IMG/VR virus record: IMGVR_UViG_3300035698_023842
Coordinates: 1 to 25,962 of that record
Origin: a virus
DNA: 25,962 nt
Reading direction: 5' to 3' (one strand)
A program made the position numbers and the translations under genes. How positions within the stretch are numbered: the first letter of the stretch is position 1; every line of letters begins with the position of its first letter. The notes beneath the pieces were generated by a model, which searched no databases, was not told the origin of the DNA, and was given only the letters and a program-made list of their open reading frames with translations. Of the stretch, positions 2,569-9,654 are shown one piece after another.

Positions 2569-3448
2569 TTAAATTTCCTCAAATTCAAGTCTTGTCATAA
2601 TTGCTTCTGTTGCCCATATATTTTTATAATCAGCACACTTCTCCTCAAACAATTTATAAGTAGCATCATCCCATATATAAAAATTATTTTTATACCATTT
2701 TTCAATATGTTTAGATGCATATAGAGGAAGAAATTTACCATAAAGTTTCCAATTGAATTTATTAGTATCCCACCAATCATCAAACCTATAAGAAAGTTTT
2801 TTAACTAATGCTCCACTTCCAAATTTGTAATTAAATTTTTCAGGATCCCACCACACATCAAACCTGTTTGGTAAATGCAAAGCTAATGCTCTACTTTGTC
2901 TCCAATTAAAATCATCTGCATCCCACCAAGAATCAAAATAAGGTTTTCCATGTCTTGCGAAATAATTTATAATTCAATCTCATATCAATTTTGCTTGTAT
3001 CAAACCATTTATGAAAATGAGGTTTACAATGTATTAATAATCCTTCCCATAAATTATAATGTTTAAGTACTCGAGCTTTATCATCTTTAAATTGTGCTAT
3101 GTGTGTTCTTGATTCAACAGTTGGCCACCATTTATCAAAATGGGGAGAACAATATTTCACAAGAAAACTATCATGCATTGCAGGATATTGTTTAGGGTCC
3201 CACCATTTATCAAAATGATTTGAGCAATACTTGGTTAGAAAAGGACTCCAATTACCATATGGTATAATTCTGTCTTTCCATATACTATCAAAATCTTTTG
3301 CATATTTTCTACATTGTTTAATAAAAAGATCGCTTCTGTCAATCCAGGCTTTACCTGTTATATCACGTTCTTTTGAAATTTGAGATTTTCTTTTGAGTGA
3401 TACTTGTATATTATAATTTCGAGATCTTTCTTTATTGTTAACTTGCAT
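2569..3448 (-). CDS. Trp-rich 26-residue repeat protein, split by a +1 frameshift at TTT CGC
   Basis: Read as complement(2960..3448) joined to complement(2569..2958), skipping one base (position 2959), this gives 292 residues. In the zero frame the protein stops at TGA (2933-2935) eight codons after the codon pair TTT CGC. The +1 frame continues with GCA AGA CAT and restores the repeat register exactly: LF/ARHGKPYFDSWW aligns without gaps to LLAKYCPRKFDEWF of the neighbour gene. There are about eight repeats of the type (K/R)xFDxWWDPxKFNWKxxSxxL. The start is ATG 3448, since AAGGGAAG is well spaced for it and too close to ATG 3454. The N-terminal 50 residues are basic. The protein ends ATEAIMTRLEFEEI, the shared tail of this cluster. 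Function unknown. Alternatives to programmed frameshifting are a recent mutation or a sequence error. Confidence 0.7.
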
Positions 3449-3950
3449 TTTCATCTTCCCTTTCGAGTTTTTGCATTATATAAAAAGTTTCCAAATTAGA
3501 CATGTCTAATTTTTCTTTTTTATGTTTTGCAAATTCTAATAAGATATTTAATAAATGATAACAATGCTCATCAAGACTTCCTCTGCAAGTTAATTCAAAG
3601 TTAACTTTATCATATCCCTCGCCTACCTCTACTGATTTAAATAACATTTCATTTAATATATAAAAATCAAGGACTTGTGAAGTAATAAATACATCTTTAA
3701 TAACTACATCTTTTATGAAGGATGTCATTGAATGTACCATCGTTCCATCTTCATTACATTCCTCTTCTCTAAATATTCTTCTAATATCATTATTTAGATT
3801 TATATATTGAGTAGATTTACATGTCAATGCAAACCTAAGGAAGTCTGTTATTACTTTTTTATAAGGGCATGAAATAATTGGTTGAATTACTTTAACTTCA
3901 AGGTTCCCTATATAATCTTTTATGAATTCATCAATATTAATAATTGTCAT
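3438..3950 (-). CDS. Hypothetical protein carrying the cluster's C-terminal KLE tail, 170 aa
   Basis: Not recognised. It has no Trp repeats. It is mixed helix/strand, with hydrophobic stretches (FITSQVLDFYILNEMLF) and scattered Cys, and no membrane helix. The end, FYIMQKLEREDENAS, matches the tail of its neighbours. Two starts are possible, ATG 3956 and ATG 3950. The second is preferred because GAGG lies six bases before it and abuts the first. Both ends overlap other genes: its start lies inside the last codons of the upstream Trp-repeat gene, and its own last codons (GATGAAAATG) hold the start of the downstream one. This makes translational coupling likely. Confidence 0.75.
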   Translation of the reverse strand: MTIINIDEFIKDYIGNLEVKVIQPIISCPYKKVITDFLRFALTCKSTQYINLNNDIRRIFREEECNEDGTMVHSMTSFIKDVVIKDVFITSQVLDFYILNEMLFKSVEVGEGYDKVNFELTCRGSLDEHCYHLLNILLEFAKHKKEKLDMSNLETFYIMQKLEREDENAS

Positions 3951-5064
3951 TTTCATCCTCGAATTCTAATTTAAACATGATAGCGTCTGTTGCCCATCTG
4001 TCTTTATATTGAAAGCAATACAATTCAAATATATTCTTAATGTCTTCTGCCCACTCTGAAAGCATTTCCCATAAATCAGATGTATACCATATATCAAATT
4101 TATCAGGGCAATTTTTGGCTAATTGTGTAACCCACTCATATGTCATATTATCAATACTAATAATAGGCCACCATGTATTAAAATGTTTTGAACATTTTTC
4201 TATCAAGGAATCTACTGAATGTAAACTAAATTTATTAGGATCCCACCAATCATCAAAATATCTTGAACATTTTCTTGCTAAATATCCGCTACCTGTATTA
4301 TAATTAAAAACATCATTTCCTTTCCACCATTTTTTAAATTGTTGAGAACAACAGCAAGCCAAATAAGATGTATGTTCTATATCTATTTTATCAGCATCAT
4401 ACCATATATTAAAATGTCTTGGAGCATACGTGATTAATTCATTACATGAATCTTTCCAATTAAATTTATTAGGATCCCAATACTCAAGAAATTTAGTCGG
4501 ATAAGTTTGAAGTAAATCTTCCCATTCCCACATATTAGAATTCATTTTATTTTTTACATAAGGAATCCATTTATCATACTGATCAGGGCAACAAAGGATA
4601 AGACTTCCTATTAAAGAATTATCATTCCAATTAAGTTTTTCAGGGATAAACCATTTATTGAAATGTCGAGAACAATATTCAGCTAATCCATCTGAAGTAG
4701 TTTTCCAATTGAATTTTTCAGGATTCCACCAAACATTAAATTTATTTGATAATTCATCACATAAAAATCCACTAAGGTTTTTCCAATTCCATCTTTTAGG
4801 ATCCCACCAGATATTAAACTTTTCTGGATATCGTCTAACTAATAGGCGTCCTATTTGTTTCCAATTAACTTTTGTAGGGATAAACCATTCATCAAATTTT
4901 CTAGGACAATATTTAGCTAATAAATATGAATGAGTTTTATATGGGAATGTTTTAGGATTAAACCATTCATTAAACCTGCCTTGCATATTGATATGAGTTC
5001 GTCCGTCTCCTCTAACAATTTTATTTATTGTCCATTTCGGTGGTGGCATTTTAAAATTAGGCAT
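3937..5064 (-). CDS. Trp-rich 26-residue repeat protein, about 12 tandem repeats, 375 aa
   Basis: Almost the whole protein is a tandem array with the consensus (K/R)(H/K)F(N/D)xW(W/F)(D/N)PxKFNWKxxSxxLAxYC(S/P). Examples are EKFNIWWDPKRWNWK, NKFNVWWNPEKFNWK and TKFLEYWDPNKFNWK. Unit length is about 26 residues, with a few longer units. The regular aromatic positions and helical spacers suggest a solenoid, but I know no named family or function for it. Many repeats carry Cys at the YC(S/P) position. The C-terminus is ATDAIMFKLEFED plus ENDNY. ATG 5064 is preferred over TTG 5067 because GGAGG is better spaced for it. The gene starts 8 bases after the gene upstream and overlaps the one downstream. 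The opposite strand shows long open frames here, but these are shadows of the repeats. Confidence 0.85.
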   Translation of the reverse strand: MPNFKMPPPKWTINKIVRGDGRTHINMQGRFNEWFNPKTFPYKTHSYLLAKYCPRKFDEWFIPTKVNWKQIGRLLVRRYPEKFNIWWDPKRWNWKNLSGFLCDELSNKFNVWWNPEKFNWKTTSDGLAEYCSRHFNKWFIPEKLNWNDNSLIGSLILCCPDQYDKWIPYVKNKMNSNMWEWEDLLQTYPTKFLEYWDPNKFNWKDSCNELITYAPRHFNIWYDADKIDIEHTSYLACCCSQQFKKWWKGNDVFNYNTGSGYLARKCSRYFDDWWDPNKFSLHSVDSLIEKCSKHFNTWWPIISIDNMTYEWVTQLAKNCPDKFDIWYTSDLWEMLSEWAEDIKNIFELYCFQYKDRWATDAIMFKLEFEDENDNY

Positions 5065-5072
5065 CAATCCTC

Positions 5073-5351
5073 CTATAAATTATATTCAATTTTAAATGAA
5101 TTTTTATCTATTTCGCTTTTTACATTTACTTGTTTAAGTATATAACTATTTGATTCATTTCCACCTATTTGAAATATCTGTTCTCCTTCTTTTGTTATTA
5201 ATAAAATTAAACACGTATTATCATTGTTGTCGACAATTATATTATTGAGCAATCCTCGAACTCCAATAATAACCCCATCTTGTTTAATTAAATGTAGATG
5301 GATCAAATCTCCGAGAAATGTACTTAAACAACGTGAAGCTGAAATGATCAT
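5073..5351 (-). CDS. Small beta-rich protein, paralogue A of three, 92 aa
   Basis: This is one of three adjacent small proteins (with 5366-5647 and 5658-5957) that share a layout: a short N-terminal helix, then alternating strands with conserved turns (GDLIHLHLIKQDG, GLLNNIIVDN), then a variable strand region and a common tail. Here the tail is diverged: EIDKNSFKIEYNL against IMFKLEHD in the others. A small SH3- or Sm-like barrel is a reasonable guess from the strand pattern, but no motif proves it. The start follows GGGGGAAAA. The stop TAG runs directly into GGAGG, the ribosome binding site of the next gene. Function unknown. Confidence 0.75.
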   Translation of the reverse strand: MIISASRCLSTFLGDLIHLHLIKQDGVIIGVRGLLNNIIVDNNDNTCLILLITKEGEQIFQIGGNESNSYILKQVNVKSEIDKNSFKIEYNL

Positions 5352-5365
5352 TTATATTTTCCCCC

Positions 5366-5647
5366 TTATGATATGTCATGTTCTAGTTTAAATAACATTC
5401 TGTCAATATCACTATATTCTTGTATGCTTATAAGATTTTGTGAATTGCCTAATACTACATTTTCGGATCCGTTAGCACAATCTAAAGTAAGCATTACTAC
5501 ACCGACATAAACTTCAGCATCTACTAGAATTCCTATTTGTTTATGTTCACTTGTACCCACTGGAGTAGACCATTTAATACACACCAATTTATTTAAATAA
5601 TTATTGGCAAATTTAATCGTTGTTTCTATCCATTCAAGCTCGTCCAT
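5366..5647 (-). CDS. Small beta-rich protein, paralogue B of three, 93 aa
   Basis: Same size and layout as its neighbours: an N-terminal helix (EWIETTIKFANNYL), a first strand (KLVCIKWSTP), a second strand with a GILVDA motif matching GILIDI in the next gene, and the tail SDIDRMLFKLEHDIS. The tail differs from that of 5658-5957 by only a few residues, although the middle of the protein has diverged far. It starts at ATG 5647 after AAGGAGA. The genes follow each other with gaps of 10-14 bases, so they are one transcription unit read leftward. No catalytic or metal motif is visible and the function is unknown. Confidence 0.75.
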   Translation of the reverse strand: MDELEWIETTIKFANNYLNKLVCIKWSTPVGTSEHKQIGILVDAEVYVGVVMLTLDCANGSENVVLGNSQNLISIQEYSDIDRMLFKLEHDIS

Positions 5648-5657
5648 ATCATTCTCC

Positions 5658-5957
5658 TTATGCTAAATCATGTTCGAGTTTAAACATTATACGAGCAGTA
5701 TCATTACAAGATTTTATTTTAAACAACTCTTCATCTGCATATAATGTTAAATTATAAATTCCTTTAGCATTATGTATTTCTAATTTTATAGATTCGAGAT
5801 TGTTATTTGCTCTAGGCCACCATTGTGTTATATCAATAAGTATACCTTTATGAATATATTTTGAATATATACCATTAGTACGAGAGACTTTTACTGTAAT
5901 AATTACCAACTTATCAATATAAGGGAATAATAAATTTAACATTGCTTTTGTAATCAT
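5658..5957 (-). CDS. Small beta-rich protein, paralogue C of three, 99 aa
   Basis: The start is ATG 5957, preceded by AGGAG. A longer frame runs upstream but would enter the divergent endolysin gene and has no ribosome binding site. The strand pattern (KLVIITVKVSRTNG, HKGILIDITQWW, LESIKLEIHNAKG) aligns with the two neighbours, and the tail is NDTARIMFKLEHDLA. It is the first gene of the leftward cluster. Only 37 bases separate it from the endolysin start, so the promoters for both directions must be compact or overlap. Function unknown. The conserved positions (GIL(I/V)D and the tail) would make good anchors for a profile search. Confidence 0.75.
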   Translation of the reverse strand: MITKAMLNLLFPYIDKLVIITVKVSRTNGIYSKYIHKGILIDITQWWPRANNNLESIKLEIHNAKGIYNLTLYADEELFKIKSCNDTARIMFKLEHDLA

Positions 5958-5967
5958 ATTATTCTCC

Positions 5968-5981
5968 TGAATAAATATTAA
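5968..5981 (+). promoter_or_regulatory. Candidate promoter-type motif TGAATAAATATTAA ahead of the endolysin gene
   Basis: It differs by one base from TGAACAAATATTAA found ahead of two virion genes (13834, 18518). It ends just before the GGAAA ribosome binding site of 5995-6744, so the leader would be very short. The motif is AT-rich and near-matches occur by chance in coding DNA, so this is a weak call. Confidence 0.3.
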
Positions 5982-5994
5982 AAAGGAAATTACC

Positions 5995-6744
5995 ATGTCT
6001 AGTCGAGATTTACAGGATATATATTCCCCCTTTAGAAAAGTTATTAAAAAAGCATTAGTCATTGCCAAAGCTCAAGGGTTACATGTATTAATAACATGTA
6101 CCCAAAGATTGCCTGCAGAACAAGAAGCTTTATATGCTCAAGGTAGAAATTCACTTGAGGAAGTTAATAAAGCAAGGAGAGAATGTGGTCTCTGGGAAAT
6201 AAGTGAAAAAGAAAATTCTAGAAAAGTAACTTGGACACTTTCCTCTTATCATACAGTAATACCTAAAGCAATGGCTATTGATTTTGCAATAACTAAACCA
6301 GACGGGAAAATCAGCTGGGATGTTAAGGGTGATATTAATAAAAATGAATTAGCTGATTATAAAGAATTTGCTGAGATATGTAAAAAAATAGATCCTGTAA
6401 ATATCCAATGGGGTGGTGATTGGAAGAATCCTGATAATCCTCATATCCAATGGAAGAACGGAAAATTTATAATTCAATCAGTCAAGGAAGGAGTAGTCGA
6501 AAATAATCAACATGATACCCAACATCAACAAGAACTTAAACATGAAAACCAACCCGCTAATAAGTCCACAAAACAACATAACAAAAAGCCCAATAAGACA
6601 CAACAAACAAATCAAATTAATACAAAATCTAATAGCCATCTTAATAATGTTCATAATAAATCTCCTCGTATAATTAAAGATAAAATGCCTATATTAAATG
6701 CAATAGCAAAATTTTTAAGTTTATTTAAAATAGGGGGAAAGTAG
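5995..6744 (+). CDS. Endolysin, M15-family D-Ala/L-Ala-D-Glu-type peptidase, 249 aa
   Basis: Residues 1-155 form an M15 (VanY/Ply500-like) zinc peptidase domain expected to cut peptide cross-links of peptidoglycan. Visible landmarks are TQRLPAEQEALYAQGR (37-51), the metal motif SYHTVIPKAMAIDF with H86 and D96, and WGGDWKNPDNPHIQW, which supplies the catalytic acid and the third ligand H150. The usual SxHxxGxAxD has H and D seven apart. Here they are ten apart, a three-residue insertion. Residues 160-225 are a Gln/Asn/His/Lys-rich linker. The last 20 residues (KMPILNAIAKFLSLFKIGGK) form a cationic amphipathic segment. No signal peptide is seen, so release would need a holin; none is recognised here. 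GGAAA precedes the ATG, and an intrinsic terminator overlaps the stop. Confidence 0.88.
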   Translation: MSSRDLQDIYSPFRKVIKKALVIAKAQGLHVLITCTQRLPAEQEALYAQGRNSLEEVNKARRECGLWEISEKENSRKVTWTLSSYHTVIPKAMAIDFAITKPDGKISWDVKGDINKNELADYKEFAEICKKIDPVNIQWGGDWKNPDNPHIQWKNGKFIIQSVKEGVVENNQHDTQHQQELKHENQPANKSTKQHNKKPNKTQQTNQINTKSNSHLNNVHNKSPRIIKDKMPILNAIAKFLSLFKIGGK

Positions 6745-6851: not shown

Positions 6852-8201
6852 TTAAACAATTTCTGTTATTTTCTTAATTATATCTGATGAATCTATTAGT
6901 TGTCTTGTTAACTGAGCAGAACCTGCCTTTTTATTACCTTTCATTAATACCTTTACTCCCAACGGCACAATAGGTCTACATTTTTCTGTAACACCTTCAA
7001 GTACTTTCTTCAAGCTTTTCATGTGTACCTTTTCAATCTTTTGCTCTCTTCTCATGCGTTTTAAAGTTTCATCAATCATAACTGTCATGATGGAATACAT
7101 TTCCATTTGATTGAGGTTGCTTATTACTGGAATTCCTCTTCCTTCCAATAATTCAGGAGCATTCCACTCAAGCATTAAACTTTTGTATTCATAAAACTTT
7201 CCAGCAAATTCTGTCCCGACATGACCTTTCATAATTGTATAAATCTGACTCATATCAACCTTATTTACCCATTCTTCGAAATGATTCAATTTATCAGATG
7301 CATATGTCCAGGATCTTGGAGAAGCCCACGGCTCATTTTCTCGTGGAGTACTGGATAAATATTCCGGACAATTTTGCAAGAACATTACTATATCTGTCCT
7401 TACTCCATATCCAATAGCAAAATTATTTATCCAATCATCAATATTACTTTGTACATCAATAAAATCAATCCTGTTTGTAATTGGTGCAAGCATCTGCTGG
7501 AATCCGGCTCTGTCCGTTGACCTATTACCCGCCATTACTAAAACAACATTCTTAGGAAGGTGGTGCGAGTTAATTGATCGGTATGTGAGTAACTGAAACA
7601 AATAACTCTGCATTGTTTTATTAAGTAGATGAATATCATCTAACATAAGAACCATTGTATCTGTATCCCAGCTAAATGTTGTTTTGCCTTGGTCATCTCT
7701 TGGAACATATCTAATATTCCGAAATGAAAACAATTCAGGCAATGACCACTGAGTATAAGCTGGTTCTTCCTGTACTACATATTCAGGTAGGTCCTTGACT
7801 ATTTGGGCAAGAGGACCAAGCAATTCAATATCATCTCTTTTCTTAAGGCCTTCCAGCGATTTAGCAAACCATCTGTGAAATTGTTTTTCGGCAGCTGATC
7901 CTGCTTTGGGTAGTCCTGTTAGTTGTTCTAATTGCATTGTAGCCATGTAATAAACTGTCAATGCTGTAGGGTATCCTCTTTCTGTCAGGTTATGACATAT
8001 CTGTTCAGCCAAATCAGACTTACCAATTCCTGGAGGCCCTGATACACAAAGAGCACTATATCGAATTTCACCAGCATGAGCATACTTTTCCATTACAGTT
8101 TTATGCATCATAATATGATTTTCGATAAATGGGATTGACTCATTAAGATTCATCGTTGTTCCAAATACACCTTCATCTTCTCTAACTTTTTTCTTTGACA
8201 T
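6852..8201 (-). CDS. MoxR-type AAA+ ATPase, 449 aa
   Basis: A clear AAA+ module: Walker A GPPGIGKS (residues 55-62), Walker B MVLMLDD (183-189), sensor-1 Asn in VMAGNRSTD (N226) and a probable arginine finger in ITNRIDF (R244). The order and the C-terminal helical part fit the MoxR/RavA/CobS side of the family. These ATPases usually remodel a target together with a VWA-domain partner. The partner is the next gene upstream, 8215-9654, 13 bases away in the same operon. The start ATG is preceded by AAGGAG. Phage copies are often labelled cobalt chelatase CobS; nothing here points to cobalamin synthesis. The real substrate is unknown. Confidence 0.85.
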   Translation of the reverse strand: MSKKKVREDEGVFGTTMNLNESIPFIENHIMMHKTVMEKYAHAGEIRYSALCVSGPPGIGKSDLAEQICHNLTERGYPTALTVYYMATMQLEQLTGLPKAGSAAEKQFHRWFAKSLEGLKKRDDIELLGPLAQIVKDLPEYVVQEEPAYTQWSLPELFSFRNIRYVPRDDQGKTTFSWDTDTMVLMLDDIHLLNKTMQSYLFQLLTYRSINSHHLPKNVVLVMAGNRSTDRAGFQQMLAPITNRIDFIDVQSNIDDWINNFAIGYGVRTDIVMFLQNCPEYLSSTPRENEPWASPRSWTYASDKLNHFEEWVNKVDMSQIYTIMKGHVGTEFAGKFYEYKSLMLEWNAPELLEGRGIPVISNLNQMEMYSIMTVMIDETLKRMRREQKIEKVHMKSLKKVLEGVTEKCRPIVPLGVKVLMKGNKKAGSAQLTRQLIDSSDIIKKITEIV

Positions 8202-8214
8202 TCACAAGATCTCC

Positions 8215-9654
8215 TTATACTTTGAGTTTAATTACTTTTCCACTGATTTCTGGATGAGAATTATCATTATTTGTAATGTATATTCTTGGCAACCATGAAG
8301 GAAGTACTTCCTGATGCTCTTCCACGTCTGAATCCAAGTCAGAACAACTTATATAACATGATACTAAAACATCATCATCATGGGCAATATAATCATTGAT
8401 ATATTTAAAAACGTCTTTATGACTTGTTCCGCCACATTGTCTTCTTTCCAATAACTCATCAATGTCCACATCTTCCATTGATTCATACAATTTATTCCAA
8501 CCAACATCCCAATCATGTTTAAGAATTAAAAGGTTTTTATAAAATTCACGACTTTGTTGAACTACTCCTATAGCATCACGGATATCATGATCACTCATTG
8601 ATCCTGATTCATCAATACTGAAAATAACAGTTCCGTATTTTTCTTCTACAATCCTACTCGGTCTATAAGCAATTGTTATAGGATTTGCTAACCATATAGG
8701 ATTTGGTTTCGACCAAGCAACTTCAAAAGATTTTTCAAGTGCTGTAGCAATTGAATCAGATAATATCTTTTTCCAATCAACTTTAACTTTAAAAAGTCTT
8801 TTAAGAAACCTTCCAATTTTAGTTGAACCAGTTCCTTTTATTAATTCGCTCTCCATCATTTGGCGACCCAGTGCTGCACTCTCTTTCATCTTCTTATCAT
8901 GGGCCGCTAATTCTTCTTCAGTCATATTAGGAGGAGTAGGAAATTCAACTTGAACATCTTTAAACTTCTTACCGTTTACTTCAAAAGTAGTTTCGATAAC
9001 TTTAATATCCTGAGTGTTATCTTCATTACTTCCTGCGTCTCCTGGTTTAGGTTCTGGTTTTCCTTCTTTTCCGTCATCTTTGTTTTCGCCACCTGAATCA
9101 CAACCTTTTTGTAATTCTTCTATCGATGTAGTTGAGATAGTTTGTTTATATTTACATTGCTTGCTCATAAGCACATCATAAACTTCTTCCTCAATTTGAT
9201 TATCAAACATATCATCAATACAAAATCTAGAGTTGTAATCATTATTATTACATTGAAGAAGTCTTATTTCTTGATGACTTTCAAGAGCTTGTAACAATAA
9301 ATTGATAACAAAATCTCCTGCAATATTCCACATATAAGGATTTCTATTTTTAATCCTATATGCATGGAATAATATTATATGCATTATTTCATGTAGTAAA
9401 ATAAAAGCTGTAATATATTTTTGCTCTTTTATTGTTGAAATTGGGTCATCTTGTTTCATCCCAATATATATTGATTTTCTATAATGATCTACTGCGGCTC
9501 CTGCTCCTTTTGGTAATGATGTAGTAGGGATTATCTCGTACTCGAGTAACTTTAAACCATGAGGTCTAAATATAGGATCCCTTATCATCTTTGATGATAA
9601 CTGAAGGCATAATTTTTGAATTATGAGCCCTTCGCTTTGACTTACTTCATTCAT
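8215..9654 (-). CDS. VWA-domain protein with HExxH metallopeptidase-like N-domain, 479 aa
   Basis: The N-terminal domain carries HEIMH (residues 88-92) within LLHEIMHIILFHAYR and a nearby WNIAGDFVIN, the pattern of the DUF2201-type putative metallopeptidases. A low-complexity acidic linker (about 185-215, KPEPKPGD) and a second helical stretch follow. The C-terminal VWA-like domain has the metal-ion-dependent adhesion site FSIDESGSMSD (D348, S350, S352). Proteins with this layout occur next to MoxR ATPases, as here, and form an ATPase-adaptor pair. Whether the HExxH site is proteolytically active cannot be told. ATG 9654 is preceded by a weak GGCGGG. The name CobT is sometimes given to such phage proteins but is misleading. 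Confidence 0.82.
   Translation of the reverse strand: MNEVSQSEGLIIQKLCLQLSSKMIRDPIFRPHGLKLLEYEIIPTTSLPKGAGAAVDHYRKSIYIGMKQDDPISTIKEQKYITAFILLHEIMHIILFHAYRIKNRNPYMWNIAGDFVINLLLQALESHQEIRLLQCNNNDYNSRFCIDDMFDNQIEEEVYDVLMSKQCKYKQTISTTSIEELQKGCDSGGENKDDGKEGKPEPKPGDAGSNEDNTQDIKVIETTFEVNGKKFKDVQVEFPTPPNMTEEELAAHDKKMKESAALGRQMMESELIKGTGSTKIGRFLKRLFKVKVDWKKILSDSIATALEKSFEVAWSKPNPIWLANPITIAYRPSRIVEEKYGTVIFSIDESGSMSDHDIRDAIGVVQQSREFYKNLLILKHDWDVGWNKLYESMEDVDIDELLERRQCGGTSHKDVFKYINDYIAHDDDVLVSCYISCSDLDSDVEEHQEVLPSWLPRIYITNNDNSHPEISGKVIKLKV

Follow-up and report, generated by a model that had tools for sequence, protein, structure and literature searches.

A shared C-terminal tail on arrayed small proteins and Trp-repeat proteins of a myovirus: a possible docking handle

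The array and its products

The stretch of DNA analyzed here, called the window, is the entire IMG/VR record IMGVR_UViG_3300035698_023842, with a length of 25,962 bases. It belongs to a myovirus. Ranked by coverage × identity, the best cultured matches to its tail sheath come from PBS1, AR9, and large phages related to them, with ~31% identity. Between positions 2569 and 5957, the minus strand carries a cluster of genes with products that end in a similar peptide, and this C-terminal tail is the subject of the analysis. The evidence base is sequence together with two monomer structure predictions, and several of the records compared are fragments.

Three of the genes are small. The gene at 5658..5957 (tail codons 5661-5702) encodes a proposed Sm-like barrel that ends in NDTARIMFKLEHDLA and is 54% identical to its orthologue in a related phage locus, L002:15236-15538; alignment with this orthologue makes 5957 a more likely start than 6068. 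Its neighbor at 5366..5647 (tail codons 5369-5410) encodes a predicted Sm-like barrel protein ending in SDIDRMLFKLEHDIS, and the gene at 5073..5351 (tail codons 5076-5114) encodes a member of the same family with a degenerate tail, EIDKNSFKIEYNL, and a full-length match to L002:14637-14939 (E 3e-8). Next to these lies a Trp-repeat gene, 3937..5067 (tail codons 3940-3987; end WATDAIMFKLEFEDENDNY), the last codons of which overlap the Shine-Dalgarno sequence and start of the gene that follows. That gene, 3438..3956, encodes a 172-residue protein (p172) ending in FYIMQKLEREDENAS. Finally, three-frame translation reads the open reading frames (ORFs) 2933-3454 and 2569-2880 as a single second Trp-repeat gene, 2569..3454 (tail codons 2572-2607; end WATEAIMTRLEFEEI), with a one-base frame change near 2970-2985. 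Because this change splits the gene, the tail-less ORF 2933-3454 is a fragment; the frame change may be a sequencing error, a mutation, or a programmed shift. By gene order, a gap at 5958..5994, assigned to no strand, separates the array from the divergent M15 peptidase gene at 5995-6744 and probably holds the promoter region of the array.

A preliminary description of this DNA presented these genes as encoding six mostly unrelated proteins with one common end. The six C-terminal sequences exist as quoted, all on the minus strand. Calling their bearers mostly unrelated was an overstatement: three belong to a single family, a further two are paralogues of the Trp-repeat type, with one copy broken, and the product of 3438-3956 fails the chance test. 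The opposite case, full-length homology of all six, holds by hidden Markov model (HMM) and alignment for the three small genes only.

These three genes, 5073-5351, 5366-5647, and 5658-5957, form one diverged family of full-length homologues with the small genes of L002. The AlphaFold2 model of 5366-5647, made with 18 sequences (predicted local distance difference test, pLDDT, 91.6), starts with a helix, continues with five strands, and closes with a C-terminal helix (residues 80-90) that is the tail. Foldseek returned nothing below 0.001 for this model. A second look at structure matches gave Hfq, SmAP, and Lsm at Z 6.4-7.1, or 6.4-7.8 with Gemin6 and PafBC included, which is below the Z 8 caution line. 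The predicted fold is consistent with an Sm-like barrel, though not proof of one. It resembles the small β-barrels of the Sm/LSm/Hfq and WYL groups in its predicted N-terminal helix and five strands, and differs from them in the extra conserved C-terminal helix, in tandem arrays of up to ~15 paralogues, and in lacking a significant sequence match. LSM/Hfq sequence profiles run against 22 members gave a single LSM match, in one member only (E 0.016); the best Sm-related match in a PDB profile search was at E 0.88; and a Pfam match of cluster proteins to SHOCT (PF20612) fell below the cutoff (E 0.17; 12.5 bits vs 24). Pfam, PHROGs, and PDB sequence searches with the window genes gave nothing usable, and the phage collection held no significant cultured relatives of the Trp-repeat, 172-residue, or tested small proteins.

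The model of the Trp-repeat protein 3937-5067 (AlphaFold2; mean pLDDT 74) is a two-helix solenoid. Its weak Foldseek matches are mostly large-virus proteins built of ankyrin repeats or other solenoids. The last degenerate repeat passes directly into the tail as a single final helix, residues 352-372, in agreement with the earlier suggestion that the tail grows out of this repeat. The sole homologue of p172 in the compared records is a 174-residue protein of L002 (40%).

Conservation and distribution of the tail

We scored sequences with a tail profile trained on Sm-like tails only. The genes 5366, 5658, and 5073, which were themselves training members, score 33.6, 31.8, and 22.0, and the Trp-repeat genes 3937 and 2569 score 12.8 and 4.6. 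Shuffles give p 0.00055 for 3937-5067 and a weak p 0.015 for 2569; for p172 the likeness is not significant, at p 0.11. Across 80 sheath-related loci, comprising 377,000 tested positions, scores of at least 12 bits occur at nine positions (six from the record used for training, three from elsewhere), all of which are C-terminal, and at 0 of 344,000 internal positions. Pairwise identity is 53% for the tails and 17% for the bodies. When ~100 other loci were searched de novo for C-termini in common, clusters with diverse bodies turned up only in L041 and L051, both of which belong to the tail group.

The ATPase adjacent to the cluster led to L002, with 74% identity over the ATPase. At the same position, L002 has 11 consecutive small ORFs, nearly all ending in [LM]FK[IL]E[HY]DI(A), typically LFKIEHDIA, followed by a Trp-repeat protein and the 174-residue protein, which are homologues of 3937 and 3438. 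L003 is a nearly identical phage across its overlap with L002. Two more tailed genes each are found in L008 (record G002) and L012 (record G001). Record G007 has ~15 tandem small ORFs with a Trp-repeat gene embedded among them, and the 112.8-kb relative G001 has five to seven tailed small genes, dispersed. Tailed Trp-repeat genes adjoin tailed small genes in G000, G003, G007, and G001. The expectation of further tailed proteins is borne out in related phages, where more arrays with the same tail were found, though not in the rest of the window, where the best C-terminus outside the cluster scores 1.2 (19446-20117). Array copy number differs among phages, and since the syntenic record G008 (79% sheath identity) lacks the array, the module is accessory. 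A body-only HMM groups the small proteins of the window and L002 and finds nothing significant in G001, G007, or G002 (best E 0.1), though the tail persists there; Sm-like folds in those small proteins are an assumption. Pattern matches in L004-L007, L009-L011, and L017-L022 were discarded, as they have no C-terminal tail, and so was the match in G006/L015, which is not located at an ORF end.

Alternatively, the tail could be a nucleic-acid signal, such as a ribosome-binding site or coupling element, that is translated by accident. This does apply to part of two ends in the window: the final residues (..EDEN..) of 3937-5067 and 3438-3956 double as the Shine-Dalgarno sequence and start of the next gene, so part of the resemblance of these two proteins is dual coding. 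It applies as well to the RG.. part of the array ends in record G011. In the small genes of the window and L002, however, the Shine-Dalgarno sequence lies downstream of the stop and the tail codons vary synonymously. Identical tail codons between records amount to 0.73, vs 0.67 expected by codon usage, and within the L002 array to 0.77 vs 0.61, a modest excess. A G007 gene without any start within 200 nucleotides still carries the tail. Since the codons vary synonymously and the Shine-Dalgarno sequence sits after the stop, conservation in the small genes, as judged from these comparisons, is mainly at the protein level. The nucleic-acid explanation is already contradicted for the small genes and is extremely improbable as a general account.

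A docking handle and its alternatives

We favor the interpretation that the tail is a constant docking handle, in the form of a C-terminal amphipathic helix, on variable accessory proteins, and we assign it a probability of about 0.48. Its chief carriers would be the small proteins, the array of which is expanding, and the Trp-repeat solenoid would carry it too; beyond the two modeled proteins, the remaining tails presumably fold in the same way. The bodies may have diverged to bind different targets, and the tail would have stayed unchanged as all members meet one common, probably phage-encoded, partner. Perhaps the tailed proteins are adaptors that bring targets to one machine. This idea draws on an analogy with the ankyrin-repeat/F-box (PRANC) substrate adaptors of poxviruses, and on the body shapes, since solenoids and barrels could plausibly serve as scaffolds for binding. 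The likeness lies in families of variable repeat proteins that keep one C-terminal docking element unchanged; the differences are that the repeat is another one, that the virus is prokaryotic, and that the adaptor role is conjectural here. Among the cluster proteins, Pfam gave no match to an F-box/PRANC domain.

A precedent for a docking handle comes from record G032 (128.8 kb), which was reached through the Trp-repeat motif. It has no homologue of the window sheath, and no core homology was detected. In this apparently unrelated phage, an analogous peptide occurs on many body types: of roughly 250 genes, ~34 encode proteins with the ending [L]xxKM[SK][EK]H[L], and their bodies fall into ~18 BLASTP clusters, including Trp-repeats, DUF4116 repeats (E 1e-21; none occur in the window cluster), a small family of five, and 15 singletons. 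It is the sharing of one C-terminal peptide by ~18 body types that makes G032 a precedent. The codons of the G032 tag vary, and the tag is present even where the next start is 55-395 nucleotides away, which further argues against a nucleic-acid signal.

Several observations weigh against a docking handle. No docking partner was identified. The tails of the Trp-repeat orthologues in G003 and G007 are weak (p 0.09 and 0.07), and p172 is not significant, so that support beyond the small-barrel family is thin. The 18 body types of G032 are an upper bound, as BLASTP misses remote homology, and the G032 tag resembles the window tail in its K and hydrophobic spacing without reaching significance in the profile test. 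In the 5366-5647 model, the tail is a confident helix directly after barrel strand 5, so its conservation could be structural. The Trp-repeat protein of G030, a 193.5-kb relative, which ends in WASDLIIFKIATEGSV (p 0.014), also counts as thin support. A 117-residue protein of G002 ends in DTENILYKLDNEDLKR (p 0.0007), but was found by scanning, and multiple testing weakens this value. The amphipathic moment of the Sm tails is of borderline significance (p 0.05), and that of the G032 tag is not significant (p 0.12).

The strongest rival of the docking handle builds on that confident helix. It holds that the tail is only the closing helix of an Sm-like family that has diverged, kept by descent and packing, and that the likeness of the Trp-repeat and 172-residue proteins reflects chance and dual coding. 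The full-length homology of the small genes in the window fits this explanation, as do the weak or nonsignificant tails of p172 and the other Trp-repeat orthologues and the overlap of ..EDEN.. with a Shine-Dalgarno sequence and start. We nevertheless judge it less likely than the docking handle. The tail, including its polar K and E residues, is conserved far beyond the barrel on which it would pack, and it is found where the bodies have no detectable similarity. The intact Trp-repeat gene in the window has a low p value, and G032 shows that body-independent C-terminal peptides do occur.

The preliminary description had read the shared end as an address or handle and offered a packaging tag, a docking peptide, or a degradation signal. 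The handle remains the best reading and is strengthened by the relatives with same-tail arrays and by G032, although the six proteins are not equal cases; the two other functions have not fared as well. As a packaging tag, the tail would be the C-terminal counterpart of the T4 capsid-targeting sequence (CTS), by which small proteins directed against the host would be loaded into the head and then injected. The T4 CTS is N-terminal. The likeness is a short terminal peptide that is the sole shared part of diverse small accessory phage proteins; in contrast to the CTS, the tail is C-terminal in all cases and, on inspection, lacks the [LI]xE cleavage site, as it reads FK[LI]E with K at P3. CTS-like peptides are found separately in the same phages (in the window at 19446 and 20120, MKSIIQEYLLFES; in G011, MYVSEQFI), and because they occupy the N-termini of other genes, capsid packaging by the tail is improbable.

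A degradation signal that shortens the lifetime of the tailed proteins would suit the C-terminal location, and several ends look like ..LA or ..IA. We find this very improbable. Between 0 and ~15 residues follow the motif, with nearly any residue at the end, so no free carboxylate is read; since the motif may sit up to ~15 residues inside, the free C-terminal residues of an ssrA-like (LAA type) degron are not a constant feature of these proteins. The tags also differ from phage to phage.

Should the tail prove to be a docking handle, a single bait peptide would retrieve the partner shared by an entire group of uncharacterized phage proteins, and metagenomic phages could be mined for host-interaction genes by searching for tags. 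The capsid-targeting logic of T4 would then have a C-terminal counterpart, present in two lineages of phages that differ in its sequence. More tentatively, large tailed phages may possess a C-terminal address system, comprising a lineage-specific tag and a presumed receptor, to which small, rapidly evolving, mutually unrelated proteins are attached in arrays (FKLEHDL in the present group; KMSEHL on ~34 G032 proteins). Our literature search found no description of such a C-terminal tag, and relative to that literature an address system of this kind is not described.

Other shared termini and neighboring genes

Shared N-termini occur in these phages as well. In the window, ORFs 19446-20117 and 20120-20446 (also 18976 and 21464) have a common, T4 CTS-like N-terminus, MKSIIQEYLLFESPE, with an [LI]xE site. 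About nine proteins of G011 start with MYVSEQFI, four of G030 start with M[ND].K[YF], and six of G001 (75259-81152 and 102981-103343) share the N-terminal motif MKxRxxFVSNSSSxSF. Three paralogous glycine-rich ORFs at G007:39706-42166 have both a common N-terminus, MSTSKIFDKL, and a common C-terminus, GSGYCKIEWYEL.

Among C-terminal peptides, four tandem Trp-repeat genes at G028:31729-35501 share the end YCREAL, with no wider tag in G028. G011:1-8800 holds ~19 tiny ORFs with ATGA overlaps, the shared C-termini of which partly encode Shine-Dalgarno sequences; this array was not counted as a third tag, as the RG.. part of the shared end is a disguised Shine-Dalgarno sequence. A four-member KLKLxxGP cluster in 100 kb of Salicola phage SCTP-2 was too small to claim.

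In the window, positions 6852-9654 encode a pair consisting of an AAA ATPase (phrog_1297) and a DUF2201/VWA-like protein (phrog_1314). The pair was dropped as a candidate docking partner, as it is not beside the arrays in G007 or G001. It lies by the M15 peptidase in G000, G003, G001, G007, G008, and G015, and occurs without the peptidase in G011 and G013.
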